This document shows, one piece after another, positions 12,519 to 60,153 of a stretch of 64,000 nucleotides of DNA. The stretch comes from Conexibacter sp. SYSU D00693 (lineage in GTDB: Bacteria > Actinomycetota > Thermoleophilia > Solirubrobacterales > Solirubrobacteraceae). The position numbers were made by a program, and so were the translations under genes. The stretch lies in contig NZ_CP070950.1 in the NCBI RefSeq assembly GCF_017084525.1, positions 1,240,001-1,304,000 of the forward strand. The letters are read 5' to 3'. The first letter of the stretch is position 1; every line of letters starts with the position of its first letter. The notes beneath the pieces are model-generated. The model was not told the DNA's origin and ran no database searches. It saw nothing but the letters and a program-made list of their open reading frames with translations.

Positions 12519-13271
12519 TCAGGCCAGCGTCGGCTGCGCCGCGGCGGGGACGTCCGCCACCGGCTGCGGCTGCTCCTGCTCCTCGAGGCGCTGCGCCTTG
12601 AGCGAGCGCAGCAGGAGCCACGACTGCACGCCGATCCAGAGCCCGAACAGCGTCAGCGGCGACCAGAACACGAACAGGCCGTTCCAGGCGAAGGCGCCCG
12701 TTCGCGGCAGGAACGCGATGGCTCCCGCCTCGAACATCAGCGCCGTCCAGATCGTCAGGTAGCCGAACCAGCGCGGGAACGGCGAGTGGCGCACCGTAGT
12801 GGGCGTGAGGCAGATGACCGCGATGGCCACCCACATGAAGATGTAGTACTGGTCGGTCGTCACGAGCGTCAGGAGCCCGAGCTCGTGCATGAGCGCCGTG
12901 ACCTCGGGCGAGCGGTCGGGGCTGAAGGCGGCGACGCCGAAGAACAGCGGCGGCAGCACCAGGAAGATCGACATCATCGCTCCCCCGCAGATGGTGAGCA
13001 GCGACCAGATCGGTCGCCCGCGCTCCTGACGGCGCATCTGCAGCGCGATGACCGCGGCCAGCGGGAGCATGAACGCGCCGGTCCAGGCGGCGATCACCGC
13101 GCCGACGCGGACCTGCGTGTGGCGGTCGTCGTACCAGGCGTCGATCGCCTGCGCGTCCATCACCGCGTCGGGCGGCGGGATCATGTCGAGCAGGAGGCCC
13201 AGGGCGATCCCGTAGATGGCGGTGAACGCCAGCGCCCACCACACGACGACGATCTGACTGCGTTCGGACAT
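12519..13271 (-). CDS. Polytopic membrane protein of unknown function
   Basis: 250 residues with about six or seven hydrophobic helices (for example VVVWWALAFTAIYGIALGLL at the N-terminus), a charged hydrophilic C-terminal tail ending in Q/P/A-rich sequence, and polar in-membrane residues (WYDDRHTQVR, TTDQYYIFMW). The ATG at 13271 is preceded by GAGGAGGAA. A perfect-core operator lies 48 bp upstream. I do not recognise the family with confidence. Regulation, and position next to NorE/NorF-like subunits, suggest it belongs to the same membrane system. The MMPL gene follows in the same operon. Confidence 0.75.
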   Translation of the reverse strand: MSERSQIVVVWWALAFTAIYGIALGLLLDMIPPPDAVMDAQAIDAWYDDRHTQVRVGAVIAAWTGAFMLPLAAVIALQMRRQERGRPIWSLLTICGGAMMSIFLVLPPLFFGVAAFSPDRSPEVTALMHELGLLTLVTTDQYYIFMWVAIAVICLTPTTVRHSPFPRWFGYLTIWTALMFEAGAIAFLPRTGAFAWNGLFVFWSPLTLFGLWIGVQSWLLLRSLKAQRLEEQEQPQPVADVPAAAQPTLA

Positions 13272-13318
13272 GGGTTCCTCCTCGTGACCTCGACAGCCGC
13301 TGGCGCGGCGTCGCGACT

Positions 13319-13334
13319 GTAAACGATCGTTTGC
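13319..13334. promoter_or_regulatory. Regulon operator, GTAAACGATCGTTTGC
   Basis: Perfect AACG-NN-CGTT core, placed between the NorF-like gene (stop at 13358) and the start (13271) of the membrane protein/MMPL operon. Proposed TetR-type binding site. Confidence 0.75.
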
Positions 13335-13357
13335 TACCGAGGCAAGCGCATCGCCCG

Positions 13358-13645
13358 TCAACCGGCGTCGCCGGTGACGAGCAAGGCCACCACGGCGATG
13401 CCTACGAGGACCACCCAGGCCTCGAAGGCGACGCGCAGGGCGAGCGGCGCGTGGCGCAGCTCCATGAAGTCGAGACCGATCCAGCGGATCTTCAGGAAGG
13501 CGACGGCGAGTGCGACGGCGGCGCCGGCGGTGTGCCCGTCGGATCCCGAGAACCCGTGGTCTGTCCCGACCCAGAGCGAGACGAAGGTCGCCAGCAGCAG
13601 GGCCCCGAAGACGACGACAGGACGGCTGAGACGCTGCACGGCCAT
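13358..13645 (-). CDS. Cytochrome c oxidase subunit IV-family small membrane protein (NorF-like)
   Basis: 95 residues with three hydrophobic helices, matching the prokaryotic COX subunit IV family (PF03626), which includes NorF. Its conserved core (AVALAVAFLKIRWIGLDFME) has the family pattern of a helix ending in a charged K-x-x-x-x-x-x-x-FME turn. The ATG at 13645 lies 5 bases after the stop of the COX III-like gene. No catalytic subunit I or NorB is present anywhere in the window, so this subunit serves an unidentified membrane enzyme or one encoded elsewhere. Confidence 0.8.
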   Translation of the reverse strand: MAVQRLSRPVVVFGALLLATFVSLWVGTDHGFSGSDGHTAGAAVALAVAFLKIRWIGLDFMELRHAPLALRVAFEAWVVLVGIAVVALLVTGDAG

Positions 13646-13650
13646 GGTCG

Positions 13651-14289
13651 TCACGAGGCCAGGTAGAGCAGCGGGAACAGCACGACCCACAGCAGGTCGA
13701 CCATGTGCCAGAAGGTCGCCCCGACCTCGACCGCGCGCTGGTCACCCGGCTTGGCCGTCGCTCGAAGCGCGATGCGCCAGAGCACGACCAGCGCGACCAT
13801 CCCCAGCACCACGTGCGCCGCGTGGATGCCGGTGAGGATGAAGAAGTACATGAAGAAGTCGTTGGTCCCCGGGTCGTGCCCGCCCGCGACCTTGTCGGCG
13901 TACTCGATGCCCTTGATGGTCAGGAACACCGCGGCGCAGGCGGCCGCGCCGACGAACATGCGGGCGGCAGGCGCACGGGCCCCCCGCCGCATCGAGCGGA
14001 CCGCGAGGGCGACCAGCAGCGAGCTCGTCAGCAGGACGACGACGTTGACCGCGCCGAAGCCCTGCGTGAGCTCCTCTCTCGAGGCGGCGAAGACCGCCGG
14101 GTCCTCAGAGCGCGCGACCAGGAAGACGCCGAAGAGGACGGCGAAGACGAGCATGTCGCCCAGGACGAGGATCCAGACCCCGATCTCGCCGGGGACGTGG
14201 CCCCGGGTCCAGCGCGAAGGGGCGGCCGCTGCCGGTCCGGCCTCCTCGCGGTCGTCGCCGATGACCTCGGAGGGGATCGTGGCCGTCAT
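13651..14289 (-). CDS. Heme-copper oxidase subunit III-family protein (NorE-like)
   Basis: 212 residues, five predicted helices: the short five-helix form typical of NorE and quinol-oxidase subunit III. Family marks are GEIGVWILVLGDM, IKGIEYADK, FFILTGIHAAHVVLG and the final E-V-G-x-x-F-W-H-M-V-D-L-L-W. The ATG at 14289 is favoured; an in-frame ATG at 14343 would overlap the aldehyde dehydrogenase gene. It forms an operon with the aldehyde dehydrogenase upstream (13-bp gap) and the NorF-like gene downstream. NorE and NorF accompany nitric oxide reductase in denitrifiers, yet no reductase is encoded here. Confidence 0.88.
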   Translation of the reverse strand: MTATIPSEVIGDDREEAGPAAAAPSRWTRGHVPGEIGVWILVLGDMLVFAVLFGVFLVARSEDPAVFAASREELTQGFGAVNVVVLLTSSLLVALAVRSMRRGARAPAARMFVGAAACAAVFLTIKGIEYADKVAGGHDPGTNDFFMYFFILTGIHAAHVVLGMVALVVLWRIALRATAKPGDQRAVEVGATFWHMVDLLWVVLFPLLYLAS

Positions 14290-14302
14290 GGGCGCGGCGA
14301 CC

Positions 14303-15862: not shown

Positions 15863-15881
15863 GGCCAGAGCCTACACGGAT

Positions 15882-15897
15882 GTGAGCGATCGTTCGC
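15882..15897. promoter_or_regulatory. Regulon operator, GTGAGCGATCGTTCGC
   Basis: One mismatch in the core (AGCG for AACG). It lies 20 bp upstream of the aldehyde dehydrogenase start in the divergent promoter region. Confidence 0.65.
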
Positions 15898-15904
15898 AAC
15901 CTGC

Positions 15905-15920
15905 GTGAACGAGCGTGTAC
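15905..15920. promoter_or_regulatory. Second operator-like site, GTGAACGAGCGTGTAC
   Basis: Good left half and one mismatch in the right core (CGTG). It lies 10 bp before the ATG of the SnoaL-like gene; centre-to-centre spacing from the previous site is 23 bp. Confidence 0.5.
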
Positions 15921-15930
15921 GGTCGTCGCC

Positions 15931-16347
15931 ATGACCACCTCCACCGATGCGCACCGCGCGGCCGTCGACGTCGTCGGCGACTTCCTGGACGCCGTCGCCG
16001 GCGCGAACCTGGAGCGCGCGCTGGCCCTGCTGGCCGGCGACGTCACGGTGCACGAACCCGAGAGCCTCCCCTACGGCGGCGACCACCGCGGGCCCGACGC
16101 CTTCGCCGCCATGCTCGGCCAGATCGCGGGCGCGTATCGCGTGCGACTCGACGGCCACGAGCTCCACGACGCGGGGGACGTGGTCGTCGCCCACGTGCGG
16201 TGCCGCATGACCTCGCGGACCACGGGCCGGGAGCTCGACGTGCCGATCATCGAGCTCTACCGCGTTCGCGACGGCCGGATCCTCGCCCTCGACGCCTTCC
16301 CGAAGGACACCGCGGCGATGCTGGCGCTCCACACCGCCGCAGGCTGA
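15931..16347 (+). CDS. SnoaL/NTF2-like small protein
   Basis: 138 residues with the cone-shaped NTF2/SnoaL fold pattern: an N-terminal helix pair (FLDAVAGANLERALALLAGD), V-T-V-H-E-P after the first strand, then GGDHRGPDAFAAML and a C-terminal strand ending ELYRVRDGRILALDAF. Members act as small cyclases, isomerases (ketosteroid-isomerase like), limonene-epoxide hydrolases, or ligand binders. It diverges from the aldehyde dehydrogenase operon and shares its operators, so a step in the same catabolic route is likely. Catalytic residues are not certain. Confidence 0.8.
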   Translation: MTTSTDAHRAAVDVVGDFLDAVAGANLERALALLAGDVTVHEPESLPYGGDHRGPDAFAAMLGQIAGAYRVRLDGHELHDAGDVVVAHVRCRMTSRTTGRELDVPIIELYRVRDGRILALDAFPKDTAAMLALHTAAG

Positions 16348-16497
16348 AAGCGCCCCGACGAACGGGACCAGGACGCCGGCGGCTCGCGTGTCTCAGCGGT
16401 CCACCGGCGTCCTGGAGGAGAGCGCCGCGCGGTGCGTGCCAGTGCGGGTCGGATGCCCACGCGACCGCCGCACCGTACCGCAGAGCGTCGTCTTCAA

Positions 16498-17086: not shown

Positions 17087-17090
17087 CCCG

Positions 17091-20189: not shown

Positions 20190-20381
20190 TCAGTCGTCGA
20201 TGGAGATCGCCTGGACCGGACAGCGCCGAACGGCGTCCTCGACGCACGATCGCTGCTCCTCACCGGGCGTCGGGTCGAGCAGCAGGACGACGTGGTCCTC
20301 GTCCAGGGCGAAGACGTCGGGCGCCGCCATGACGCAGTCGCCGTGGGCGTCGCACCTCGAGCTGTCGACGATGACCTTCAC
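20190..20381 (-). CDS. 3Fe-4S ferredoxin (P450-type)
   Basis: 63 residues. Cluster ligands C10, C16 (C-D-A-H-G-D-C) and C54 (R-C-P) fit the single [3Fe-4S] ferredoxins that feed actinobacterial P450s; an additional C46 is present. It transfers electrons from a ferredoxin reductase (candidate at 38404-39591) to an oxygenase (P450 at 55155-56390 or the membrane system). It is a single-gene unit with an operator-like site 57 bp upstream. A paralogue lies at 21324-21518. Confidence 0.93.
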   Translation of the reverse strand: MKVIVDSSRCDAHGDCVMAAPDVFALDEDHVVLLLDPTPGEEQRSCVEDAVRRCPVQAISIDD

Positions 20382-20508: not shown

Positions 20509-21321
20509 TCACGCCGAACCGTAGGACTCCACCATGGCCAGCAACCCCTGGCGCAGCTGCGGGTCGTCGGTCAGCGGGCCCGCGACCGCCACGGTCGCCG
20601 CCTCGGTGAACGACAGGCCCTCGGCGATGAGCTGCCCCGCGGCGATGAGCGTGCGCGTCGAAGCGGCTTCCCTCAAGCCCGCGTCCTTGACTCGGCGGAT
20701 GGCCTGGGCCAGGGCCACGAGGTCGTCGGCCACCCCCTCGTCCACGCCCGCCTCCCGACGGAGGACCTCGCGCTCGACCTCCGCGGTCGGGAAGTCGAGC
20801 TCGATGGCCACCATCCGCTGGCGGGTGGAGGTCTTGAGGTCCTTGAGGACACTCTGGTAGCCCGGGTTGTAGGAGACGACGAGGCAGAAGCCCTCGGCCG
20901 CCTTCAGCGTCATGCCGCCGCGGCGCTCGAGATGGAGCTCGCGCCGGTGGTCGGTGAGCGAGTGGATGGCCACGGTGGCGTCCTGACGGGCCTCGACGAC
21001 CTCGTCGAGGTAGCAGATGCCGCCCTCGCGAACGGCACGGGTGAGCGGACCGTCGATCCACTCGGTGTCGCCGCCCTGCAGGACGTAGCGGCCGAGCAGG
21101 TCGCTGGCGGTCATGTCCTCGTGGCAGCTCACCGTGTGCAGCGAGACGCCGAGACGGTGGGCGACGTGCTCGACCAGCCGCGTCTTGCCACAGCCGGTCG
21201 GGCCCTTGAGCATCACCGGCAGGCCGCGCCGCGCGGCCGCTTCGAAGACCTCCACCTCGCGGCCGACGGGCGCGTAGAACGGGGCCGCGGACCGGCGCTC
21301 GTCGACCATCTGGGAGGCCAC
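20509..21321 (-). CDS. MoxR-type AAA+ ATPase of the NorQ/CbbQ family (copy 1)
   Basis: About 270 residues. Walker A is GPTGCGKT at 40-47, Walker B GICYLDEV, and the family segments SCHEDMTASDLLGRYVL, VSYNPGYQ and LKTSTRQRM are all present. NorQ/CbbQ proteins pair with a VWA protein (NorD/CbbO) to activate or insert metal into an enzyme by ATP-driven remodelling. GTG at 21321 overlaps the end of the ferredoxin gene and has GAGGGC upstream; ATG at 21309 is an alternative. It is the last gene of the carotenoid-oxygenase/ferredoxin operon. Its likely VWA partner, at 35487-37196, is about 14 kb away. Confidence 0.9.
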   Translation of the reverse strand: MASQMVDERRSAAPFYAPVGREVEVFEAAARRGLPVMLKGPTGCGKTRLVEHVAHRLGVSLHTVSCHEDMTASDLLGRYVLQGGDTEWIDGPLTRAVREGGICYLDEVVEARQDATVAIHSLTDHRRELHLERRGGMTLKAAEGFCLVVSYNPGYQSVLKDLKTSTRQRMVAIELDFPTAEVEREVLRREAGVDEGVADDLVALAQAIRRVKDAGLREAASTRTLIAAGQLIAEGLSFTEAATVAVAGPLTDDPQLRQGLLAMVESYGSA

Positions 21322-21323
21322 GA

Positions 21324-21518
21324 TCAGCCCTCGAGGCGGATCGCGGCCACCGGGCAGTCGTCGGCCGCCTGCCGGACCTGCTCGCGCAGCGCCTCGGGCG
21401 GGTCGGCCATGAGCAGGACCGCGACGTTGTCCTCCTCGTCGAGGTCGAAGACGTCGGGCGCGGCCATGACGCAGTCGCCATGGGCCTCGCACCGGGCCGT
21501 GTCGATGAGCACCCGCAT
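21324..21518 (-). CDS. 3Fe-4S ferredoxin (second copy)
   Basis: 64 residues, with C10, C16 and C55 as cluster ligands and about 60 % identity by eye to the ferredoxin at 20190-20381 over the N-terminal half (identical CVMAAPDVF). It sits between the carotenoid-oxygenase gene (1-bp overlap, TGATG) and the norQ-like gene, so all three are co-translated. Electron donor to an oxygenase; which of the two ferredoxins serves the P450 cannot be told. Confidence 0.92.
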   Translation of the reverse strand: MRVLIDTARCEAHGDCVMAAPDVFDLDEEDNVAVLLMADPPEALREQVRQAADDCPVAAIRLEG

Positions 21519-23141: not shown

Positions 23142-23157
23142 GTGAACGGTCGTTGAC
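23142..23157. promoter_or_regulatory. Regulon operator, GTGAACGGTCGTTGAC
   Basis: Perfect core, 53 bp upstream of the carotenoid-oxygenase start. First of two sites in tandem (centres 14 bp apart), which would place two dimers close together on the DNA. Confidence 0.75.
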
Positions 23158-23171
23158 AAACGATCGTTCCC
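23156..23171. promoter_or_regulatory. Regulon operator, ACAAACGATCGTTCCC
   Basis: Perfect core, overlapping the previous site by 2 bp, in the divergent region between the carotenoid-oxygenase operon and the crotonase gene. Confidence 0.72.
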
Positions 23172-34326: not shown

Positions 34327-35505
34327 ATGACCCACCAGGCCGTGGCGCCCGGCGATCCAGCGCTGGACCACAGCACGAAGATGATGCTCGACACCGTGCG
34401 CGACGTGGCCGCGGGCCGGGTCGCTCCGGGGGTCATCGAGCGCGACCGCGAGGAGCGCTTCGACCGCGGCTTGGTGCGCGAGCTCGGCCAGCTCGACCTC
34501 CTCGGCGGCATCGTCCCCACCGAGTACGGCGGGACCGGCCTCAGCCACGTTGCGTTCTCCGCCCTGCTCCAGGAGATGTCGCGGACCGACCACCTCATGG
34601 GCCTGGTCATGTCGTTCCCCAGCGGCCTCGCCGGCGCCGGGCTGCTCCAGTACGGCAGCGAGGAGCAGAAGCAGGAGTTCCTGCCGCGCCTGTGCCGCGG
34701 CGAGCTCATCTTCTCGGCCGGCGTGACGGAGCCCGGCTCAGGCACCGGCGTCGCCGACATGCAGACGACCTGCCGGCGCGAGGGCGACCACTACGTGATC
34801 GACGGCGCGAAGACGTGGATCAGCCTCATCGACGTCTGCGACTACGTCCTGACCTTCGCCACGCTCGACAGGTCCGGCGGCCGCGGCGCCGTCTGCGCCT
34901 TCCTCGTCCCGCGCGACACCCCCGGCCTGACGCTGCGCCCGTTCAAGAACAAGCTCGGCTTCCGCGGGGTCGCCACCGGCGAGGTCTTCCTCGAAGGCGT
35001 CACGGTCCCCGCCGCGAACCGGGTCGGTGAGGAGGGCCAGGGCTACGGCGTCGCGATGGCGGCCGTCGAGACCGGCCGCCTGGGCGTCGCGTCGCGGGCG
35101 CTCGGCCTCGCCCAGGACTGCCTGGACCGCTCGACGGCCTACGCCCGCGAGCGGATCGTCCAGGGCCAGGAGATCGGCCGCTACCAGCTCGTGCAGTCGA
35201 TGGTCACCGACATGGTCGTCGGCATCGACGGCGCCCGGGCGATGACCTACGACTACGCCGCCAAGCGCGACGAGGGGCTGCGCGCCAGGCGCGAGGCCTC
35301 CCTGGCCAAGATGCACGCCAGCGACGTCGCGATGTCCGCCGCGACGGCCGCAGTGCAGATCCACGGCGCCTACGGCACGCACGAGGAGTACCACGTGGCC
35401 CGCCACTTCCGCGACGCGAAGGTGTTCCAGATCGTCGAGGGCCAGAACCAGCTGCACCGCTCGATGGTCGCCGAGTACGCGCTCGGCTACCGCGGGGCGG
35501 CCTGA
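34327..35505 (+). CDS. Acyl-CoA dehydrogenase
   Basis: 392 residues: FSAGVTEPGSGTGVADM for FAD contact, GAKTWISLIDVCDY, VGEEGQGYGVAM, QIHGAYGTHEEYHVARHFRDAK and IVEGQNQLHRSM, where the E of VEGQNQ occupies the catalytic-base position of short/medium-chain enzymes. The pattern is nearest to benzylsuccinyl- or cyclohexane-carboxyl-type CoA dehydrogenases, by eye. GAGGAGGACGAC precedes the ATG. Its last 19 bp overlap the 3' end of the convergent norD-like gene. Confidence 0.9.
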   Translation: MTHQAVAPGDPALDHSTKMMLDTVRDVAAGRVAPGVIERDREERFDRGLVRELGQLDLLGGIVPTEYGGTGLSHVAFSALLQEMSRTDHLMGLVMSFPSGLAGAGLLQYGSEEQKQEFLPRLCRGELIFSAGVTEPGSGTGVADMQTTCRREGDHYVIDGAKTWISLIDVCDYVLTFATLDRSGGRGAVCAFLVPRDTPGLTLRPFKNKLGFRGVATGEVFLEGVTVPAANRVGEEGQGYGVAMAAVETGRLGVASRALGLAQDCLDRSTAYARERIVQGQEIGRYQLVQSMVTDMVVGIDGARAMTYDYAAKRDEGLRARREASLAKMHASDVAMSAATAAVQIHGAYGTHEEYHVARHFRDAKVFQIVEGQNQLHRSMVAEYALGYRGAA

Positions 35506-37199: not shown

Positions 37200-38372
37200 C
37201 TACTCGCTCCCGCCCGGGGCGCCCCGGTCGAACGGGATGATCGCGGGCAGGGGGTCGCCCTTGCTGCCGGGCGTCACCGTGCCCTCCGTGTTGGGGTAGG
37301 CCGACTGGTCGCGGATGTGCGGCACGCCCGGGCCCGGACACGGACGGTCGGTGCCCTCCCCGCAGAGGTTGTTCGTGAAGTACGACCGCTTCTGCAGGTC
37401 CTCGGGCCACGGCGTGGAGTTCATCCCGATGAACGTGTTGGGGACGTTGTAGGTCAGGAACATGCCGAGGTGCACCGCCGCGGTGACGGCCAGGGCGCGC
37501 ACGAGGACGCTGCGGCCCGGCCGCAGGCGCAGGTGGTCGACGCCCCGCTCGACGACGGTCCGGCCGCGGTCGTCGAGGAAGAAGCGCAGCGAGGCCATCA
37601 CGGTGAAGGTCGCCGACACCGTCAGCATCTCGTTGAGCGGGTACTTGTGGTAGCTGTCAGGGAAGATCGACCAATGGCCACCCGGGTACTCGAAGACCCC
37701 CAGCGGCAGCCAGATGATGCCCTCGAGGACGAGGTCGAAGAGGCACATCGCCAGGTAGCAGATGAAGATCAGCGACAGCGAGCCCAGCTGCGGCCAGCGC
37801 GCACGCGCGGCCTTCATCACCTTGCAGCCCAGGAAGGCGGCCAGGATCATGATGTAGACGTAGGCCGCCGGGGTGAAGAGGATCGGTTCGGAGGTCATCG
37901 CCCCGGGCTCGCCGTAGGCGGTCCACCACGGGATGCTGTTGGCCCAGCTCCCGAAGTTGAGCATCGACGTGTTGTAGACGAACCAGTGGCCGCCGCTGGA
38001 GCTCAGCACGTCCTGGAACCAGAGGCTCGAGAAGCCCAGCAGCAGCACGCCGTCGACGCCCACGGTGCGCTCGCGCCGCCACGGTCGCCAGACGAAGCGG
38101 TAGAGCAGGTAGGCCGCCGCGGGCAGGGAGACGACCTGCCACAGGATGAGCTCGACCTGCATCCAGGTCGGCGGGTCGCTGGGGCCCTGCTCGACGCGTT
38201 CGAAGTACGGCCCCGTGACCCAGCTGATGATCACGTAGGCGATGAAGGCCAGGATCACCGCGCCGAGCAGCGCCCAGAACTTCACCGGCGGGGTGCGGTT
38301 CTCGGCGACGTCGATGGTCGGCGGGCCTAGGGTGCCCGGGCTCGGGGCCGGGCGATCGACGGCTACTGCCAT
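37200..38372 (-). CDS. AveC-family (spirocyclase-like) membrane protein
   Basis: 390 residues, about seven to eight hydrophobic helices, for example FWALLGAVILAFIAYVIISW at the N-terminus. Conserved-looking polar residues sit in or next to membrane helices: SSLWFQDVLSSSGGHWF, YNTSMLNFGSWANSIPWW, FDLVLEGIIWLPLGVFEYPG. A C-terminal outside domain contains two Cys (NNLCGEG, DRPCPGPG). I place it in the AveC family, named after the avermectin spirocyclase; many members occur in non-producing actinobacteria with unknown roles. ATG at 38372 follows CAGGAGGAGACC. Its operon partners (ferredoxin reductase, NorD-like) suggest a metal- and electron-dependent membrane enzyme. Confidence 0.75.
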   Translation of the reverse strand: MAVAVDRPAPSPGTLGPPTIDVAENRTPPVKFWALLGAVILAFIAYVIISWVTGPYFERVEQGPSDPPTWMQVELILWQVVSLPAAAYLLYRFVWRPWRRERTVGVDGVLLLGFSSLWFQDVLSSSGGHWFVYNTSMLNFGSWANSIPWWTAYGEPGAMTSEPILFTPAAYVYIMILAAFLGCKVMKAARARWPQLGSLSLIFICYLAMCLFDLVLEGIIWLPLGVFEYPGGHWSIFPDSYHKYPLNEMLTVSATFTVMASLRFFLDDRGRTVVERGVDHLRLRPGRSVLVRALAVTAAVHLGMFLTYNVPNTFIGMNSTPWPEDLQKRSYFTNNLCGEGTDRPCPGPGVPHIRDQSAYPNTEGTVTPGSKGDPLPAIIPFDRGAPGGSE

Positions 38373-38403: not shown

Positions 38404-39591
38404 TCACGCCGCCACCTGCTCGACCAGCCGGGCCGCGAGGGCCCGCTGGTGCTCGATGACCTTCTTCGTCCGGTTCCAGGCGACGACGCCGACGAGCTCG
38501 TCGCCGCGCAGCGCCTCGACGACCAGCGCCCGGCGGTCCGGCTCCTCTTCGGTGACGACGAACCGGTCGGCGGCGGACAGCAGCCCGGCGGACTTGAGCT
38601 TGACGTCGTACTGGTCCGACCAGAACGTGGGGACCGGCGCGAACGACCTGCGCTCCTCGGCCGTGGCGAGCAGGTTGCGCGCCGCAACGGGGCCCATGTC
38701 CCGGGCGATGGCCCAGTGCTCGATGGACACCGGCGCCCCGCCCGCCAAGGGCTGGGGCCAGGCGGCGACGTCCCCAGCGGCGGCCACGTCCTCGACGCCG
38801 ACCGCCAAGCACGTCGCGTCACAGACCACGGCGCCACGGTCGTCGAGCTCGAGCGCCGAGCCCGCCAGCCAGTCGGTGTTGGGCACCGAGCCGAGCGCGA
38901 CGAGGACGACGTCGGAGGCGACCGTCGCGCCGTCGCTCAGGTGCGCGAGCTGTCCCGAGCCCGCCGGCTCGAGCTCGTCGACACTGGTGCTCAGGCGCAG
39001 GTCGACCCCGTGCGCGGCGTGCAGGGCGGCCGCACGGCGGCCGACCTCCGGCCCGGTGACCGGCATCGGCTGGGAGGCCAGCTCGACGACCGTGACCTCC
39101 TCGACGCCGAGGCCGCGCAGGGTCGCCGCGACCTCGCAGCCGATGAAGCCGGCGCCCACCACCAGCACGCGGCGCGCGCGGCGAACTGCGTGACGCAGCG
39201 CCAGGGCATCGTCGAGCCCGCGCAGCGTCAGCACACCGCCGACCTCGGCGGCGACGGACGACGTGCGCGGTCGCCGTCCCGTGGCCACCAGCAGCCGGTC
39301 GTAGGGCACGGCGGTCCCGTCGGCCAGGAGCACCTCGTGCGCGTCGGCGTCGAGCTCGACGGCCGGCGCGCCGGCCTGGTGGCGGACGCCGTCCAGCGGC
39401 GGGAAGACACAGGCCTCGGGCTCCATCGTGCCGGCGAGCACCTGCTTGGACAGCGGCGGACGGTCGTACGGCGCATGGCGCTCATCGCCGACGAGCACCA
39501 CCTCGCCCGCGAACCCGTCACGCAGCAGCACGGATGCCGCGCGGTGGCCGGCCAGACCACCGCCGACGATCACGACGCGCAGCGAGCCCAC
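38404..39591 (-). CDS. Ferredoxin--NAD(P)+ reductase (BphA4/rubredoxin-reductase type)
   Basis: 395 residues. FAD fold VGGGLAG at 9-15, HAPYDRPPLSK (FAD-isoalloxazine segment), second nucleotide fold VVGAGFIGCEVA near 144-155, and the C-terminal FAD motif EDVAAAGDVAAWP. It passes electrons from NAD(P)H to ferredoxin, the natural partner of the two 3Fe-4S ferredoxins here and hence of the P450 or the membrane system. GTG start; the operator 39597-39612 lies 5 bp upstream, so the message may be nearly leaderless. First gene of the operon with AveC-family and NorD-like genes. Confidence 0.92.
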   Translation of the reverse strand: MGSLRVVIVGGGLAGHRAASVLLRDGFAGEVVLVGDERHAPYDRPPLSKQVLAGTMEPEACVFPPLDGVRHQAGAPAVELDADAHEVLLADGTAVPYDRLLVATGRRPRTSSVAAEVGGVLTLRGLDDALALRHAVRRARRVLVVGAGFIGCEVAATLRGLGVEEVTVVELASQPMPVTGPEVGRRAAALHAAHGVDLRLSTSVDELEPAGSGQLAHLSDGATVASDVVLVALGSVPNTDWLAGSALELDDRGAVVCDATCLAVGVEDVAAAGDVAAWPQPLAGGAPVSIEHWAIARDMGPVAARNLLATAEERRSFAPVPTFWSDQYDVKLKSAGLLSAADRFVVTEEEPDRRALVVEALRGDELVGVVAWNRTKKVIEHQRALAARLVEQVAA

Positions 39592-39596: not shown

Positions 39597-39612
39597 GTGA
39601 ACGATCGCTTGC
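39597..39612. promoter_or_regulatory. Regulon operator, GTGAACGATCGCTTGC
   Basis: One mismatch in the right half (CGCT). It sits 5 bp upstream of the ferredoxin reductase start. Confidence 0.68.
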
Positions 39613-52533: not shown

Positions 52534-52536
52534 CGG

Positions 52537-54425: not shown

Positions 54426-54450
54426 GTCCGGTCCATCGGGAGGCCAGCTC

Positions 54451-55218
54451 ATGTACGACGCCGACCAGGTGCTGCAGCGCATCGACGACCACACCGTGAT
54501 CGTCCTGGCGCTCGGCGGCCTCGCGCTGGTGTGCAACTACGTGTTCTTCGGTGAGGCGGCAAGACTGGCCCGGCGCGACCGCTGCGTCCCCTTCCTGCTG
54601 CTGTGCTGCGCGTTCTGGTTCCCGCACGACGGCAACTACCTGCTCGACGCGCAGCTGTGGTTCGACGACTACGACCACTGGTTCCCCAAGCTCTTCTGGG
54701 TCGCCCTGGTGTTCACGTTCACGTTCGAGTGCGTGTACCTCTCCCAGACCCTGCGCTACGGACGCCGCGAGTGGGCCCCGGCGCTCACGCAGGCGCAGTT
54801 CCGGCTCTGGGTCGTGGCCACGGTCGCCCTCGGCGTGGTGCTGTGGAAGGTCGCCAAGGACGCGCTGGAGGACGACCTGTACCTCGCCGCGTTCATGGTC
54901 ACGGCGGTGTGGGCGCTGCTGTCGGGCTACCGGCTGGCGCTGCGCCGGGGCTCTCGCCGCGGGCAGTCCCCGCTGCAGTGGGGCGCCTACACGGGGATGG
55001 TCAGCTCGTACGGGGCGCTGTCGATCTTCGTCTTCGGCGGCAGCTTCGCCCGGTGGCCGTGGGTGGCGATGTGCGTCATGGCCGTCGTCGGCGGCGCCGG
55101 GCTGACGTGGTGGCTGGCGCGGGCGCCGGCGTGGGAGCCGGCGCCCGCCGCCGATCAGGCCTTCACGAGCTCGACAGGGAGCTCGTACACGCCGCGCGAG
55201 TACGCATCGCGCACGTAG
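54451..55218 (+). CDS. Polytopic membrane protein of unknown function, His/Asp-rich
   Basis: 255 residues with about six or seven helices. Between helices two and three lies a striking polar/aromatic stretch, FWFPHDGNYLLDAQLW then FDDYDHWFPKLFW, with H59, D60, D66, D72, D73, D75 and H76, and an acidic residue follows within the next helix (FTFECVYLSQ). Such clusters of His and Asp at the membrane surface could bind metal. A regulon operator precedes it. Its 3' end overlaps the P450 gene by 64 bp. The family is not recognised; the AveC-family protein at 37200 has a similarly placed aromatic/polar stretch. Confidence 0.75.
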   Translation: MYDADQVLQRIDDHTVIVLALGGLALVCNYVFFGEAARLARRDRCVPFLLLCCAFWFPHDGNYLLDAQLWFDDYDHWFPKLFWVALVFTFTFECVYLSQTLRYGRREWAPALTQAQFRLWVVATVALGVVLWKVAKDALEDDLYLAAFMVTAVWALLSGYRLALRRGSRRGQSPLQWGAYTGMVSSYGALSIFVFGGSFARWPWVAMCVMAVVGGAGLTWWLARAPAWEPAPAADQAFTSSTGSSYTPREYASRT

Positions 55219-56390: not shown

Positions 56391-56443
56391 TGGCGGTGCG
56401 TCCTCCCTGTCGTGGGCTGCGGGAGGTCGATGCTAGCGCTTCT

Positions 56444-56459
56444 GTGAACGCTCGTTCGC
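56444..56459. promoter_or_regulatory. Regulon operator, GTGAACGCTCGTTCGC
   Basis: Perfect core, 54 bp upstream of the P450 start. Confidence 0.76.
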
Positions 56460-56492
56460 AGACCAGCAGGACGTCCCGTCCTTGCCCATCAG

Positions 56493-56508
56493 GCTAACGA
56501 TCGTTTAT
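56493..56508. promoter_or_regulatory. Regulon operator, GCTAACGATCGTTTAT
   Basis: Perfect core, 38 bp before the GTG of the first small membrane protein of the NorD2/NorQ2 operon. The centre is 49 bp from the P450 operator, so the divergent promoters are controlled separately. Confidence 0.76.
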
Positions 56509-56546
56509 CGTCGGCGCGACACCCCAGAGCGAAGGCGGAGGTCGAG

Positions 56547-56807
56547 GTGTTCGAGGAGCTGTCCCCCGATCGCGAGAAGGCGATCAAGGTCTACACCGCG
56601 CTGTCGGTGCTGTTCTTCGTCGTGATCATCGGCGCGGGGTTCGTCCTCGCCGCTGACCGCGGCTACGGCGCCGGCCCGTGGGACACCGACACGGTGCACA
56701 GCTGCTACACGCCGGGCGGGCCCCACTACGTGCCCGACAAGCCCGTCAGCGAGCAGCCGTGTCCGAGCCCGACGTCCGCCGGCCTCGTGGCCCGACAGAA
56801 GGACTGA
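56547..56807 (+). CDS. Small single-pass membrane protein with Cys pair
   Basis: 86 residues. A charged N-terminal helix (FEELSPDREKAIKVYTALS) is followed by one membrane helix (VLFFVVIIGAGFVLAA) and an outside tail containing D-R-G-Y-G-A-G-P-W-D-T-D, an H and two Cys (HSCYTPGG, EQPCPSPT) that may form a disulfide or bind metal. GTG start with GGCGGAGGTCGAG upstream. First gene of a tightly packed operon of four membrane proteins and the NorD/NorQ pair. No family recognised. Confidence 0.8.
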   Translation: MFEELSPDREKAIKVYTALSVLFFVVIIGAGFVLAADRGYGAGPWDTDTVHSCYTPGGPHYVPDKPVSEQPCPSPTSAGLVARQKD

Positions 56808-56809
56808 CG

Positions 56810-56950
56810 ATGCACCTGACGGACCTCACCGCGGCCGTGATGGCCGCGGGTGTGTGGCACGACACCTGGAAGATCGCGACCTCCGTGGCGGTCCTGTTCT
56901 TCCTGCTGTGGGCGTGGAACTGGATGATGAGCCACTTCGGGACGTTCTGA
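56810..56950 (+). CDS. 46-residue single-pass membrane protein
   Basis: 46 residues: a short N-terminus, one helix (IATSVAVLFFLLWAWNWMM) and H/W residues on both sides (GVWHDTWK, MSHFGTF). It starts 2 bp after the previous stop and its stop overlaps the next start (TGATG). The tight packing and a hydrophobic helix support a true gene despite its size. It resembles the tiny accessory subunits of respiratory or oxygenase complexes in general form only. Confidence 0.75.
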   Translation: MHLTDLTAAVMAAGVWHDTWKIATSVAVLFFLLWAWNWMMSHFGTF

Positions 56951-57159
56951 TGGCCGACGAGCACCTGCCGGCCGAGCCGCGCAACCCGATCGCCGTCGGG
57001 ACCCTGCGCCAGGAGATCCGCGAGATGCCGGTCATCCAGCGCTGGGTGGTCTACACGTCGGGCTTCTGCCTGACGTTCCTGCTCCTCCAGTGCTTCCTGG
57101 TGATGCCGATCATCCTCATCAAGTACGGCTGGGGCTACAACGTCGGAGACGGCTCCTGA
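56950..57159 (+). CDS. Small single-pass membrane protein
   Basis: 69 residues. A soluble N-terminus of ~30 residues (ADEHLPAEPRNPIAVGTLR, then QEIREMPVIQRW) precedes one long helix (FCLTFLLLQCFLVMPIILI) and a short outside end (KYGWGYNVGDGS). Coupled by TGATG to genes on both sides. Third of three consecutive one-helix proteins, pointing to a multi-subunit membrane complex with the next, larger protein. Confidence 0.78.
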   Translation: MADEHLPAEPRNPIAVGTLRQEIREMPVIQRWVVYTSGFCLTFLLLQCFLVMPIILIKYGWGYNVGDGS

Positions 57160-57872
57160 TGGCGATCGCGCTGCCTCGCCGCGAGACGCGCGTCACGTCG
57201 TCGCCCCCTCCGGGCTCCGGCGGCGAGAGCACGCTGATGAAGCGCGCTGACCGTCTGCTGTTCATCGGCATCGTGCTGGGCGGCTCGTGGATCCTGGGGC
57301 CGATCGCCATCCCGTTCCTCATCGGCGCCTGCGTGCTGATGAACCGTGCCCAGAAGCGCGGCGAGCTCTACCGGCCCTGGTCGGTGACCATCATCGGCAC
57401 GTTCGTGCTGATCGACGCGTCGGTGAACTACTTCGGCTGGGGCACCGACCTGCTCTGGTCGCACGGCACCGAGCCCATGAAGACGCTGTGGCCCGGCTAC
57501 GGCAAGCTCGTCGACGGGGCGTACTACATCGACTACAACGCGGGGCCCTACGGCGGGCTGTCCAACAACGGCGAGAAGACGCTGGAGTTCTACGGCGTCC
57601 TGGTCATGTACCCGATGCGGATCATGGCGGCCTGGGCCTTCCTGAAGATGAAGCGCTGGGGTCTGCAGATGATGATCGTGACGTCCTGGATGTACGTCGC
57701 GTTCTGGGTGGCCTACGCGTCCAACGTCTACGCCGACTTCGATGCCCGCGCCGGTGCGTCGGACTTCGGCAACCTCGGGCTCTGGTTCATCCTCGTGGTC
57801 TACGCCACGCCGTTCGTGATCATGCCGTTCCTCTACACGGTCAATCGCGAGCAGTTCGCCGACGTGCGATGA
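57159..57872 (+). CDS. Polytopic membrane protein of unknown function
   Basis: 237 residues with about five helices after a ~30-residue soluble start. Outside or interface segments are rich in aromatic and acidic residues: NYFGWGTDLLWSHGTEPMK, YGKLVDGAYYIDYNAGPYGG, NNGEKTLEFYG, SNVYADFDARAGASDFG. D/H/E residues in these loops could hold a metal or polar substrate. It is probably the main membrane subunit of the complex formed with the three small proteins before it. It overlaps the norD-like start (ATGA). I do not recognise the family; it has the size but not the visible ligand pattern of PmoC/AmoC. Confidence 0.75.
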   Translation: MAIALPRRETRVTSSPPPGSGGESTLMKRADRLLFIGIVLGGSWILGPIAIPFLIGACVLMNRAQKRGELYRPWSVTIIGTFVLIDASVNYFGWGTDLLWSHGTEPMKTLWPGYGKLVDGAYYIDYNAGPYGGLSNNGEKTLEFYGVLVMYPMRIMAAWAFLKMKRWGLQMMIVTSWMYVAFWVAYASNVYADFDARAGASDFGNLGLWFILVVYATPFVIMPFLYTVNREQFADVR

Positions 57873-59353
57873 CCGTCGCCCCGCGGGCGACCGCCGAGCG
57901 CTACGTCACGGTCCTGACGGCCGCCCTCTCGGGCGGTCGTCGCGCTCGTGGCGTGCTCGACACCGGCGTGGGCCGGACCTACCTGACGGACGGTCGCGTC
58001 GTCACCGTGCCGTTCCCGTTCGAGCTGCAGCGCCGGCCGCTCACCTGCGCCCTGGCGCTCCAGGCCTCGCCGACCAAGGAGGCCGTCGCGCAGCTGCCGT
58101 GGACCGCCTTCCGCGGCCGCCAGCAGCTCGCCCTGGCCTGGGTGGAGGGCGAGATGGCCGCTCGCTGGGCCGCCGACCGGTGGCCGGGCCTGCGGGCGCA
58201 GCTCGAGCAGGAGCTGCCCGGCCTCGACCTCGACGGCCCCGTCGTGCACGAGCCCGGCGAGCTCGCCGCGCTCGCGGCCGCGCGCGCACGCGACCTGCGG
58301 CTCGCCGACCCGCCCGCGATCCTGGGCCGGCTCCCCGCACCGCGGGTCCGCGTCGGCGGGCCGCTGCGGCGGACCTTCATCGCCACGCGGTGGTCCAGCC
58401 GCCACCGCGCCCGACGGCAGGGCTCCCTCCCGGTCCCGGTCTCGGGGCCCGGGACAGAGCCGGTGCTCGACCCCGGGGCGCCCGGCACGATCGAGGCCCT
58501 GGAGGGACGGTCGGGCCACGAGCTCGGCATCCCGTACCCCGAGTGGGACGCCACCGCGGGCCGCCACCGCCCCGACCACGTGCGGGTGCTCGAGCTCCCC
58601 TGGCCGGCCTCACGCGAGCGCCACGCCGTCGCGCCGCTGCGCGTCCGCGCCCGCCCGGCCCGCACCCTGCGGCGCGGCCAGGAGCAGGGCGACCTGGACA
58701 TCGACGCCGTCGTGCGCTGGCGCTGCGACCTGCTCGCCGGCACCGCCACCGGCGCGCCGCGCCTGCACCAGACCCTGCTCCCCGGCCGCGCCCCGATCGC
58801 GTGGGCACTGCTCGTCGACGCCTCGGCCTCGGCGAGCCTCGACGGCGGACGCCTGCTGGTCACCGCGCTCTCGCACGCCGAGTCGGTCGCCGCGGGCCTG
58901 ACCCAGGACGGCCACCACGTCGCGGTCTTCGCCTTCCGCAGCCGCGCGCGCGAGCGCGTCGAGGTGCACGTCCTCCAGCGCTTCGAGGACCGGCCGCGCC
59001 CGCTGACGCGGTCCCTGCGCCCCGGGGGCTACACGCGCATGGGCGGCGCGCTTCGCCATGTGGGTGGGCGCGTCGCCGCACAGCCGGGCACGGGCCACGT
59101 CCTGCTCTCCCTGGGCGACGCGGTGCCCTACGACGAGGGCTACGGCGGGCGCTACGCGCGAGAGGACGTCCGCCACGCCGTGCAGGAGCTGCGCGCCCGG
59201 GGCGTCACGGTCCGCCACGCGGCGCTTGCGCCGGGCGACGCGGCATCGCTCACCCAGATGTTCGGCGCTCGCGGCTGGGCCCCCGCGACGTCGCGCGACC
59301 AGATCCGGGCCCTCATCGAGGACACGATCAGCGACGTGGAGGCAGACCGTTGA
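57869..59353 (+). CDS. VWA-domain protein of the NorD/CbbO type (copy 2)
   Basis: 494 residues. The C-terminal VWA domain has a canonical metal site D317-A-S-A-S321, the Thr loop GGYTRMGGALRH, and the NorD mark GDAVPYDEGYGGRYAREDVRHAVQE. The middle has P-Y-P-E-W-D-A-T-A-G-R-H-R-P-D-H, equivalent to H-P-E-W-D-W-Q-A-G-R-Y-K-P-D-W in the NorD copy at 35487. It is shorter than copy 1 in the acidic linker. It overlaps the upstream membrane gene and the downstream norQ copy by 4 bp each, the classic NorD/NorQ pairing. Confidence 0.9.
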   Translation: MTVAPRATAERYVTVLTAALSGGRRARGVLDTGVGRTYLTDGRVVTVPFPFELQRRPLTCALALQASPTKEAVAQLPWTAFRGRQQLALAWVEGEMAARWAADRWPGLRAQLEQELPGLDLDGPVVHEPGELAALAAARARDLRLADPPAILGRLPAPRVRVGGPLRRTFIATRWSSRHRARRQGSLPVPVSGPGTEPVLDPGAPGTIEALEGRSGHELGIPYPEWDATAGRHRPDHVRVLELPWPASRERHAVAPLRVRARPARTLRRGQEQGDLDIDAVVRWRCDLLAGTATGAPRLHQTLLPGRAPIAWALLVDASASASLDGGRLLVTALSHAESVAAGLTQDGHHVAVFAFRSRARERVEVHVLQRFEDRPRPLTRSLRPGGYTRMGGALRHVGGRVAAQPGTGHVLLSLGDAVPYDEGYGGRYAREDVRHAVQELRARGVTVRHAALAPGDAASLTQMFGARGWAPATSRDQIRALIEDTISDVEADR

Positions 59354-60153
59354 CCGACATCACGACCGACGCCGCGGCCTACGTGGGCGCGGGCGGAGAG
59401 CTCGACCTGCTCACCGTCGCCGCCGAGCAGGGCGCCCCGGTGCTCCTGCTCGGACCGACCGGCTGCGGCAAGACCGTGCTCGTCGAGGCGCTGGCCCGCG
59501 ACCTCGGGCGCGAGCTCGTGACCGTCACCTGCCACGACGACCTCACGACCGCCGACCTCGTCGGCCGCCACCTCATCCGCGGCGGCGACGTCGTCTGGCA
59601 GGACGGGCCGCTCACCACCGCGATGCGCGACGGTGCGGTCTGCTATCTCGACGAGGTCATCGAGGCGCGGGCCGACACGCTGGCGGTGCTGCACTCGGTC
59701 GCCGACCACCGGCGCACGCTCTACGTCGACCGCCTCGACGCCGAGGTCGTCGCGCACCCGGACTTCCTGCTGGCGGCCTCCTACAACCCGCGCGGCCCCG
59801 GGGCGGCCAAGGAGCTCAAGACCGCCCTGCGCCAGCGCTTCGTCACCGTGTCGCTCGACTACCTGCCGGCCGACGAGGAGACGGGGGTGGTCGCCGACCG
59901 GGGCGGCGTGGACCGCGACGTGGCACGTCGCCTCGTGGCCGGCGCCGGGCTGCTGCGCGAGGCGGCCACGCGTGACCTCCACGAGCGCTTCGACCCACCG
60001 TCGACCCGGGCGCTCGTGACCGCCGCGCGCCTGGTGCGCGGTGGGGCGGCGTTCGACGTGGCCTTCGGCGCCTGCGTCCTCGGGACGCTCGAGGTCGATC
60101 CGGGTACGCGCCAGGCGCTGGCCGAGCTCGTGGACGCCCAGCAGGTCCGGTGA
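59350..60153 (+). CDS. MoxR-type AAA+ ATPase of the NorQ/CbbQ family (copy 2)
   Basis: 267 residues, TTG start overlapping the norD stop (TTGA). Walker A GPTGCGKT at 35-42, Walker B AVCYLDEV, TCHDDLTTADLVGRHLI, ASYNPRGPG, LKTALRQRF. About half of the positions match copy 1 (20509-21321) by eye. With the NorD partner it would form a hexameric motor that matures the membrane complex encoded just upstream. GTGA overlap with the next gene keeps the phosphotransferase in the same operon. Confidence 0.91.
   Translation: MTDITTDAAAYVGAGGELDLLTVAAEQGAPVLLLGPTGCGKTVLVEALARDLGRELVTVTCHDDLTTADLVGRHLIRGGDVVWQDGPLTTAMRDGAVCYLDEVIEARADTLAVLHSVADHRRTLYVDRLDAEVVAHPDFLLAASYNPRGPGAAKELKTALRQRFVTVSLDYLPADEETGVVADRGGVDRDVARRLVAGAGLLREAATRDLHERFDPPSTRALVTAARLVRGGAAFDVAFGACVLGTLEVDPGTRQALAELVDAQQVR

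Follow-up and report, generated by a model that had tools for sequence, protein, structure and literature searches.

Partnerships between a MoxR ATPase and a VWA protein recur in several systems: CbbQ-CbbO and RavA-ViaA share this partnership with the locus reported here and differ from it in their clients, and GvpN likewise takes part in a MoxR/VWA partnership with another client. The closest described system is NorQ-NorD of Paracoccus denitrificans and Jhaorihella thermophila, for which passages of two papers describe FeB insertion into the nitric oxide reductase cNOR (PMC13036017, PMC9976466). Additionally, mycobacterial and nocardial proteins have been termed EBP-like or PF05241 in print (PMC4818103, PMC9903846), and these probably overlap the E family described below; the EBP passages of the two papers contain no NorQ/NorD, small subunits or AveC, and the main text of PMC4818103 holds no occurrence of MoxR or CbbQ. 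Among the open-access PMC matches listed, no report linked NorQ/NorD to E or to AveC-like proteins.

The present locus lies in a 64,000-nucleotide stretch of the genome of Conexibacter sp. SYSU D00693 (the window), in which an earlier note had recognised a single NorQ-NorD-NorE-NorF accessory set. Instead of one such set, two cognate NorQ-NorD pairs with distinct membrane partners were found, and the genes taken for NorE and NorF belong to another cassette. Our main reading, to which we assign a probability of about 0.6, is that the two pairs are dedicated, each serving its own membrane enzyme family within one catabolic regulon. The genes of the pairs, named hereafter by their lower coordinate, are the following.

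57869 to 59353, + strand: NorD-like VWA protein of pair 1; E-linked clade; profile and fold matches to NorD
59350 to 60153, + strand: NorQ-like MoxR AAA+ ATPase of pair 1; AAA_5 and CbbQ_C; E-linked clade
35487 to 37196, - strand: NorD-like VWA protein of pair 2; VWA_2; AveC-linked clade
20509 to 21321, - strand: NorQ-like AAA+ ATPase of pair 2; AAA_5 and CbbQ_C; AveC-linked clade; 14 kb from its NorD

The two NorQ-like genes proved real, both 20509 and 59350 exceeding the Pfam cut-offs for AAA_5 and CbbQ_C, and the Walker residues (G35-P-T-G-C-G-K-T42 and L100-D101-E102) were invariant in a 13-row NorQ alignment. When the Q profile was searched against PDB sequences, the top match was a solved NorQ (348 bits), with CbbQ-named chains at 314-322 bits and midasin at 327-339 bits over two stretches in this unrooted comparison by score. 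The two NorD-like genes were likewise verified, 35487 by VWA_2 (27.7 bits, barely above the Pfam cut-off of 27) and 57869, which alone had no Pfam match, by profile and fold. A 27-row profile headed by 57869 retrieved solved NorD from the PDB sequences with an E-value of 1.4e-52, CobT being next at 1e-4, and the match was restricted to the VWA half (profile positions 226-507 of 508); NorD chains were also the six best PDB matches of its predicted model in Foldseek. No CbbO structure was among the PDB matches of D, so that the NorD-nearest result holds versus the structures matched. The MIDAS residues D317, S319, S321, T389 and D417 were invariant in the 27 E-linked D rows, and the MIDAS of the AveC-linked 35487 reads DxTxS. 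The system resembles NorQ-NorD of NOR in joining a MoxR AAA+ ATPase with CbbQ_C to a VWA partner with a MIDAS, in gene adjacency, seen in the window for pair 1, and in having a proposed membrane client, and the NOR proteins are the nearest solved structures to the window Q and D. However, the host has no NorB, the proposed clients show no heme-copper link, the setting is a catabolic regulon rather than denitrification, and the match to NOR NorD spans the VWA half only.

Pair 1 shares an operon with a membrane protein, here called E, and three tiny membrane proteins.

56547 to 56807, + strand: single-TM protein of 86 aa, its tail rich in Cys and Pro by eye; candidate counterpart, by position, of a 39-43-aa subunit
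56810 to 56950, + strand: s1, 46-aa single-TM subunit ending in HFGTF; profile and phmmer matches, weak, supported by position
56950 to 57159, + strand: TM subunit of 69 aa that corresponds to mycobacterial p14 (about 110-148 aa); p14 profile and phmmer matches
57159 to 57872, + strand: E, membrane protein of 237 aa whose helical core is predicted to be EBP/sigma-2-receptor-like (EXPERA-like); putative client of pair 1

No PDB sequence matched E up to an E-value of 10, and the window protein scored 19.3 bits against PF05241 (EXPERA), below the gathering cut-off of 25.7; at an E-value of 0.01 or less, PF05241 was found in 1 of 40 E members. The predicted fold (pLDDT 78.2) looks nearest to EBP and the sigma-2 receptor, with modest scores: EBP came first in Foldseek (E-value 0.34, probability 1.00, TM 0.47/0.51; no match at 0.001), and in VIA the two proteins filled ranks 1-4 with Z of 10.0-10.6, an unrelated Fc-receptor chain reaching 9.7 and a Z under about 13 being able to reflect a mere common helical-bundle arrangement. 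Unlike EBP and the sigma-2 receptor, E has a predicted helix at 25-42 beyond the matched range, is accompanied by tiny subunits and NorQD, and remains below the PF05241 cut-off; its conserved polar residues also seem to differ from the EBP set. These residues include D86, N90, D97, D119 and E139, invariant in 40/40 members, and H102 (39/40), H226 (38/40) and H125 (36/40), of which the window protein has only H102; judged from the alignment, they would fit a metal site only loosely. The known enzymes of the EXPERA/EBP type perform acid-base chemistry and are not known to need a metal. Given this resemblance, the oxygenase that the earlier note had proposed, and even a metalloenzyme, is just one option for E.

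Regarding the small subunits, among the 436 ORFs of the window 56810 was the best match of the s1 profile (74 sequences, E-value 0.019) and 56950 that of the p14 profile (70 sequences, E-value 0.0092). By phmmer, 56810 matched a 42-aa protein of locus L041 (E-value 0.00055) and 56950 an 82-aa protein of locus L027 (E-value 3.1e-6). Since no similarity between 56547 and the 39-43-aa family could be detected, its role as counterpart is proposed from position only.

The E cassette recurs in Mycobacterium, Nocardia, Gordonia, Williamsia and Rhodococcus, and E was absent from the 60 nearest relatives. Of 331 relatives, the best 79 E loci were compared (L020-L025 fall outside the 79): s1 was found in 74, s2 in 75 and p14 in 73 by a motif rule or 74 by clustering; genes were called with a codon-model caller, with which starts are approximate and small ORFs may be missed. 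Nucleotide changes in the small ORFs were commonest at third codon positions in 4/4 sets tested. The expectation that the 57159 family would co-occur with NorQ/NorD in other genomes held: D was present in 61/79 loci, Q in 60/79 and an adjacent D-Q in 60/79. For the 18 D-less loci, 17 genomes were searched (L030 was left out; D and Q occur at L068, which comes from that assembly series). In 16/17, a D of the E type was encoded elsewhere, the best one per genome scoring at least 889 bits, some rows of the D model originating from these same genomes. The exception, G446 (locus L027), has E and a best D of just 161.7 bits. Additionally, an E locus on a Mycobacterium branderi plasmid had no NorQ/NorD nearby by annotation and similarity search.

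Pair 2 is associated with an AveC-like protein and with ferredoxin and ferredoxin reductase genes.

37200 to 38285, - strand: AveC-like membrane protein (PF17198); proposed client of pair 2
38404 to 39591, - strand: ferredoxin reductase upstream of the AveC-like gene; nearest HcaD/AndAa (NCBIfam), below cut-off
21324 to 21518, - strand: small ferredoxin in the 21518-20190 run, labelled by reading the sequence; L145 homologue
20190 to 20381, - strand: second small ferredoxin, labelled in the same way; L145 homologue

That an AveC-family membrane protein is present was upheld, 37200 scoring 176.9 bits against PF17198 (Pfam cut-off 26.6). By profile it is a member of the AveC-like family, which is named after a spirocyclase. 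Unlike avermectin AveC, the 37200 type is coupled in catabolic loci to NorD/NorQ, ferredoxin and ferredoxin reductase; to our knowledge, the avermectin aveC gene has no such coupling. At locus L145, ferredoxin, ferredoxin reductase, AveC, D, a hydrolase and Q follow in a row on the same strand: the homologue of the 38404 reductase is 52% identical and overlaps the AveC gene, that of the 21324 ferredoxin is 59% identical, and that of 20190, which had no NCBIfam match, was found with an E-value of 3.9e-22. The window P450 was not the best match of any gene in this 15.7-kb stretch. Elsewhere the orders AveC-Q-D, AveC-binding protein-Q-D and AveC-D-hydrolase-Q were observed. D92, D184, E188, E219, D238 and D239 were conserved in 13/13 AveC-like proteins of D/Q loci, in which no His was conserved at 90%, and D184 is A and E188 is N in 6/6 short lone copies. 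These short forms, with no adjoining Q/D, make up six of the 25 AveC-like proteins examined; for two of them, a D/Q pair flanking a different AveC lies about 8-10 kb away. For six further proteins no D or Q occurred within the stretch fetched. At locus L202, an AveC-clade D is accompanied by a NorQ remnant of only 53 aa, and gene calling over 20 kb gave no AveC-like gene. The 54451 family, for which linkage to NorQ/NorD had also been proposed, was dropped as a core member: its linkage to AveC stood in the host genome, where a homologue adjoins the second AveC, and failed for E, no relative being found in the 79 E loci; the other homologue is on a Diaphorobacter plasmid.

Among 396 genomes of the phylum, E was found in 8 and AveC-like proteins above cut-off in 10; with three D candidates scored per genome, D exceeded 200 bits in exactly these 10 (next best 191 bits), and all 8 E-bearing genomes were among them. 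Eight of the 10 belong to one family, so these are not 8 or 10 independent events. The proposed co-occurrence of AveC-like proteins with NorQ/NorD across actinobacteria was supported both by gene order and by these 10 genomes. The D and Q trees split E-linked from AveC-linked pairs: 59350 groups with E-linked Q (100/99) and 57869 with E-linked D (100/100), both as long branches, and 20509 and 35487 are sisters to the L145 Q (100/100, 70% identity) and D (100/99), respectively. In the D tree, L202 had been labelled AveC-linked beforehand. No homology between E and AveC-like proteins was detected in a shallow profile comparison of 13 versus 25 rows (probability 12% over 24 columns), which suggests that the two membrane targets are apparently unrelated.

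Both pairs are preceded by sites of one operator, as follows.

56496 to 56505, unstranded: operator AACGATCGTT, upstream of the E-NorD-NorQ operon; second site at 56447
39600 to 39609, unstranded: operator with 1 mismatch, upstream of the ferredoxin reductase-AveC-NorD run
23145 to 23168, unstranded: double operator, upstream of the 21518-ferredoxin-NorQ-ferredoxin run

The shared regulon already noted was substantiated: with at most one mismatch, the operator occurs at 17 sites in the window versus 0.50 expected, and 7 of the genome's 8 exact copies lie inside it. On the evidence of these predicted sites, one operator ties both NorQD pairs to a catabolic regulon.

In the mechanism that we propose, pair 1 (57869/59350) would serve a complex of 57159 with its three very small membrane subunits, and pair 2 (35487/20509) would serve 37200. 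If the published model of NorQD applies here, a hexamer of NorQ would turn the VWA domain of NorD, which would dock on the client and pull its membrane helices apart, allowing cofactor entry. Maturation of the E and AveC-like membrane enzymes is the most likely function of NorQD, and the linkage makes it highly probable that both are its direct clients. Whether the cofactor would be a metal, probably iron, inserted into an acidic pocket is an even bet. Once finished, the enzymes probably attack a hydrophobic molecule of terpenoid- or steroid-like type; acid or Lewis-acid isomerisation, hydration or cyclisation has a balanced chance of being their chemistry, and O2-dependent oxidation is a more tentative suggestion. 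The boldest version, which we consider rather unlikely, is that, beyond NOR, NorQD matures a whole class of membrane metalloenzymes that has gone unrecognised. EXPERA-like proteins with tiny subunits and AveC-like proteins would then hold carboxylate-bound iron (or copper), each type receiving it from a dedicated NorQ-NorD pair, and in actinobacteria they would attack hydrophobic substrates resembling terpenoids or steroids.

A minority explanation is that NorQD acts as an assembly or activation chaperone, similar to RavA-ViaA or CbbQO, which assembles the multi-subunit E complex or frees it of an inhibitor, E and AveC-like proteins being metal-free acid-base isomerases, hydratases or cyclases. 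The fold prediction for E, the spirocyclase name of the AveC family, the lack of a conserved His in AveC-like proteins and the presence of H102 alone in the window E agree with it, as does the resemblance of NorQD to CbbQO and to other MoxR/VWA systems with other tasks, as described in PMC13036017. However, Q and D are nearest in the PDB to NorQ/NorD, which insert FeB, with no CbbO structure among the matches, most E relatives keep three His, and the ferredoxin and ferredoxin reductase in the L145 AveC-NorD-NorQ run, lacking a P450 match, hint at AveC redox chemistry.

It is improbable that NorQ/NorD instead mature the P450, 21518 or COX3/COX4, with the E/AveC linkage reflecting shared catabolic islands. 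Everything has one operator in common and a P450 cluster occurs in 50/79 E loci, but the P450 is less constant than the small subunits (74-75/79), D/Q track E or AveC in gene order and trees, no relative of 21518 (carotenoid-oxygenase-like) was found in E or AveC neighbourhoods, and COX3/COX4 relatives occur there at one locus only, L094.

An ordinary NOR accessory set with NorCB lost or elsewhere is scarcely credible: NorQ/NorD homology and nearby COX3- and COX4-domain proteins recall one, but the COX1 of the genome is only CtaD-type, D and Q fall in E- or AveC-linked clades, and the COX3/COX4 cassette recurs in three plasmid stretches with no annotated NOR. The claim that NorQ/NorD occur here without NOR was therefore sustained. 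The whole genome, a single contig at 97.46% completeness, was searched with PF00115 in all six frames, and no NorB was found. The window itself gave no match; the two genes that matched lie 1.2 Mb away, at 23-32 kb, and both are CtaD_CoxA above cut-off, each with an adjoining CoxB above cut-off. A NOR remnant was thus ruled out. Additionally, no NorB-like gene was seen near 11 lower-scoring D-Q loci of other actinobacteria (L190-L200), where sequence starts were read. At locus L203 no D or Q was called. The remaining cassette is a separate module.

12519 to 14289, - strand: 12519/COX4-like/COX3-like cassette; Pfam domains; shared operator; separate module

An operator site at 15885 precedes the 14303-13651-13358 run, and another at 13322 precedes 12519; on sequence grounds, this cassette is co-regulated with the rest of the regulon. 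The names NorE and NorF could not be retained for its members in a genome with no NOR: 13651-14289 has a COX3 domain and comes closest to CtaE/CyoC models, though far below their cut-offs, and 13358-13654 is COX4_pro (Pfam). The cassette recurs on plasmids of Diaphorobacter, Pseudonocardia and Mycobacterium branderi (of 14 plasmid records, these three were examined), with no NorB, NorQ or NorD annotated nearby in the three stretches shown, whose gene table is incomplete. Considering these plasmids and the single L094 occurrence, it was dropped from the NorQD core.

NorQD has been studied as a NOR-specific iron loader, and here it is coupled twice, with matching phylogenies, to two membrane families that show no heme-copper ancestry. 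This suggests that there is a so far undescribed group of NorQD-dependent membrane enzymes. The two couplings offer a direct test of whether MoxR/VWA chaperones load metal or assemble mechanically. If the metalloenzyme class were true, E would be, as far as known, the first case of a catalytic metal in an EBP-like fold. Partners and small subunits can now be assigned to many 'hypothetical' genes of mycobacteria and nocardiae, and the link to NorQD may explain what AveC-like proteins require to work.

The two NorQ-like and the two NorD-like genes of the window are genuine, with intact Walker motifs in NorQ and with MIDAS residues that are invariant across 27 NorD proteins linked to E, a 237-aa membrane protein. 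The features concerned are:

12519-14289, membrane protein of the 12519 family with COX3-like and COX4-like genes
20509, NorQ-like gene of pair 2
35487, NorD-like gene of pair 2
37200-38285, AveC-like membrane protein (PF17198), the proposed partner of pair 2
57159, membrane protein E
57869, NorD-like gene of pair 1
59350, NorQ-like gene of pair 1

The host genome, a single contig of 4.43 Mb, was found to hold two COX1-family genes, both CtaD and each adjoined by CoxB, and no NorB was detected in the COX1-family search of the genome, which bears out the claim of an earlier note that NorQ and NorD occur here without nitric oxide reductase (NOR). That note had also proposed a single NorQ-NorD-NorE-NorF-type accessory set serving another membrane metalloenzyme, which proved half right: the association of NorQD with membrane families stood, and the single set gave way to two cognate pairs, since the trees are split. 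Indeed, trees of 36 NorQ and 36 NorD proteins, built without reference NorQD or CbbQO sequences, divided alike into E-linked and AveC-linked clades. The proteins of 59350 and 57869 grouped with the E-linked NorQ and NorD (100/99 and 100/100), both as long branches, and those of 20509 and 35487 grouped with the AveC-linked ones, as sisters of the NorQ and NorD of L145, a locus from the host's order (100/100 and 100/99). The two NorQ genes of the window therefore probably cannot stand in for each other, and the NorD at 35487 likely has its mate in the lone NorQ at 20509, despite the 14 kb between them. NorD-NorQ pairs of lower score with varied neighbours were also seen in other actinobacteria (L190-L200), with no NorB-like gene noticed there by eye, and these neighbours are possibly further MoxR/VWA clients.

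In the window, which spans bases 1240001-1304000 of this contig, a codon model called 62 genes, and G+C ranges from 68 to 77% in 2-kb steps. The surrounding genes, named partly by NCBIfam matches (mostly below cut-offs) and partly by reading of the sequences, include acyl-CoA dehydrogenases, SDRs, a thiolase, an acyl-CoA ligase and an Mce/YrbE set, together with relatives of carotenoid/lignostilbene oxygenases and flavin monooxygenases, a P450, ferredoxins and a ferredoxin reductase; the growth substrate would be hydrophobic and terpenoid- or steroid-like. Further runs of Mce- and YrbE-like genes, beyond the window's own set, lie downstream of the window (L108:1-19900). The regulon postulated by the earlier note was recovered as an operator: the palindrome AACGATCGTT is the 10-mer that recurs in more intergenic regions of the window than any other (5 of 21) and, with at most one mismatch, occurs at 17 sites against 0.50 expected from shuffles, 14 of them intergenic by our own gene calls. 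These sites stand upstream of the E operon, of the ferredoxin reductase-AveC-NorD run, of the 21518-ferredoxin-NorQ-ferredoxin run, of an aldehyde dehydrogenase-COX3-COX4 run and of several beta-oxidation genes. The genome contains eight exact copies: seven lie inside the 64-kb window (13322, 23159, 31219, 33835, 34270, 56496 and 63967), and the remaining one is at C1:3683491 (3.68 Mb). The sites form a compact operator regulon, for which a TetR-type regulator is suspected.

E was not found in 60 near relatives of the host; of 396 genomes from the phylum, 8 carry it, the host among them. A scan of genome contigs yielded 331 relatives, of which the best 79 loci, from Mycobacterium and allied genera, Nocardia, Gordonia, Williamsia, Rhodococcus and Aldersonia, define the neighbourhood counts. 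The recurrent order is [E]-s1-NorD-NorQ-s2-E-p14, in which s1, s2 and p14 are small membrane subunits (mostly 32-36 aa with a C-terminal GTF, 39-43 aa and 110-148 aa, respectively). Environmental carriers of this cassette include Mycolicibacterium aurum and M. frederiksbergense. In these loci s1 was observed in 74/79, s2 in 75/79 and p14 in 73/79 by a motif rule or 74/79 by clustering; NorD was present in 61, NorQ in 60 and an adjacent NorD-NorQ pair in 60, and two or more E genes occurred in 47. The tiny s1 and s2 ORFs behave as protein genes, because interspecies differences were commonest at codon position 3 in all four sets (positions 1, 2 and 3: 3376, 2685 and 4946 for s1 of 32 aa; 1240, 950 and 4325 for s1 of 34 aa; 2884, 945 and 4285 for s2 of 42 aa; 1611, 1002 and 2482 for s2 of 39 aa), with a weaker bias, and more amino-acid than silent changes, in the more diverse 32-aa s1 and 39-aa s2 sets. 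Counterpart small ORFs precede E in the window, where the best matches among 436 ORFs were 56810-56950 for the s1 profile (E-value 0.019) and 56950-57159 for the p14 profile (E-value 0.0092); for the 56547 protein no relative was detectable, with no match to the 39-43-aa family. By eye only, a Cys/Pro-rich look (e.g. CPWPYP, C.YPYP) is common to the AveC-like C-terminus, the p14 tails (L026-L104) and 56547-56807; the p14 profile scored 5.3 bits against the AveC ORF.

NorD was missing from 18 of the 79 loci. When 17 of the genomes concerned were searched, an E-type NorD was found elsewhere in 16, with best matches of at least 889 bits, some being the genes of other loci in the 79 (e.g. L059/L028 in one strain, L094/L026 in another) and some being rows of the search model itself. 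The exception is G446, the genome of locus L027, whose sole NorD match reached 161.7 bits; together with a locus on an M. branderi plasmid, L027 represents a divergent E subtype with different small partners. E would require a NorD in the genome, though not always an adjacent one.

Regarding pair 2, AveC-like genes above the Pfam cut-off were present in 10 of 396 genomes, with one further genome below it, and NorD matches above 200 bits occurred in exactly these ten; any NorD match was found in 38 genomes, the next best at 191 bits. The co-occurrence across actinobacteria that the earlier note anticipated was supported for this family as for E. The chance of such agreement is negligible under random placement, but eight of the ten genomes belong to one family, and truly independent events are therefore few. 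The order AveC-NorQ-NorD was observed in L137, L139, L141 and L149, and AveC-binding protein-NorQ-NorD in L138, L140, L143, L151, L153, L154 and L201. In L145, a single strand carries ferredoxin, ferredoxin reductase, AveC-like, NorD, hydrolase and NorQ genes, the reductase and ferredoxin being 52% and 59% identical to those of the window. The protein lying between AveC-like and NorQ genes in mycobacteria (L138:10840-11952, assigned to Peripla_BP_6 by a Pfam test of this copy, with equivalents in L140, L143, L151, L153 and L154) has, by eye, no signal peptide at its called start, and is possibly an intracellular substrate sensor.

Among 25 aligned AveC-like proteins, 13 lie in NorD/NorQ loci, six are short lone forms of about 260 aa (L140, L142, L150, L152, L154 and L155) and six lack NorD or NorQ in the fetched stretch. 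Each short form is preceded by a membrane peptide of 26-45 aa, these peptides being alike in sequence. L202 is the reverse case, with a NorD of the AveC-linked clade, a 53-aa NorQ remnant and no AveC-like gene among the calls there. Also noted by eye was an unrecognised D/H/E-rich polytopic protein, with two copies in the host (54451-55218 and L107:2850-3662); the latter adjoins a second AveC-like gene just beyond the window end, and a Diaphorobacter plasmid matches this family in two places.

The "NorE" and "NorF" genes are real COX3- and COX4-domain genes, and their NOR-specificity fell away. The trio at 12519-14289, an oxidase-subunit-III/IV module with no subunit I beside it, moves as a unit: it lies close to an E locus in M. 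aurum (L094) and on plasmids of Diaphorobacter, Pseudonocardia and M. branderi, and no NOR genes are annotated in these three plasmid stretches, examined out of 14 records matching 12519. The trio is a separate module, though under the same regulation here.

The E model, computed from a 40-sequence input, showed confident helices (mean pLDDT 78.2) and a weak loop at 120-134. Its top Foldseek match was human EBP (E-value 0.34, probability 1.00, TM 0.47/0.51), with no match below 0.001. A second aligner ranked EBP (Z 10.6 over 152 residues at 3.4 A, and 10.3) and the sigma-2 receptor (10.1 and 10.0) first to fourth among 558 chains, followed by an Fc-receptor chain (9.7) and three further sigma-2 entries (9.5-9.7). 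PF05241 matched below its cut-off, at E-value 0.01 in the window member only (1/40). The predicted fold can be read as EXPERA-like, short of proof of family membership. PF05241 has been noted in Mycobacterium, Mycolicibacterium, Microbacterium and Nocardia (PMC9903846), and a mycobacterial island has been reported to encode hypothetical proteins resembling EBP (PMC4818103); among the matches listed in the open-access literature, none linked such proteins to NorQ/NorD or AveC.

Residues conserved in all 40 E sequences include D86, N90, D97, D119, E139 and R154, with H102 in 39; H226 and H125 are present in 38 and 36, and the window protein carries Y and D at these positions. In the 13 AveC-like proteins of NorD/NorQ loci, D92, D184, E188, E219, D238, D239 and E246 are invariant and no His is conserved; the six short lone forms all have A in place of D184 and N in place of E188. 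These carboxylate-rich sets differ from the FeB site of NOR; they may form an iron site, and acid-base chemistry would fit them equally well. For the AveC-like protein, the ferredoxin-reductase-AveC run of L145 speaks in favour of redox chemistry; for E, the EBP-like fold speaks in favour of chemistry of the isomerase type.

It has been proposed that a NorQ ring turns NorD, which attaches to cNOR at two sites and opens the enzyme so that iron can enter (PMC13036017), and NorQD would act likewise on E and on AveC-like proteins, whose client identity, metal, substrate and reaction we infer. Homology, linkage, co-occurrence and the shared operator are matters of observation. Two cognate NorQD pairs would serve two apparently unrelated membrane families, which may, with a tentative probability of about 0.3, be membrane metalloenzymes of a new class that NorQD loads.
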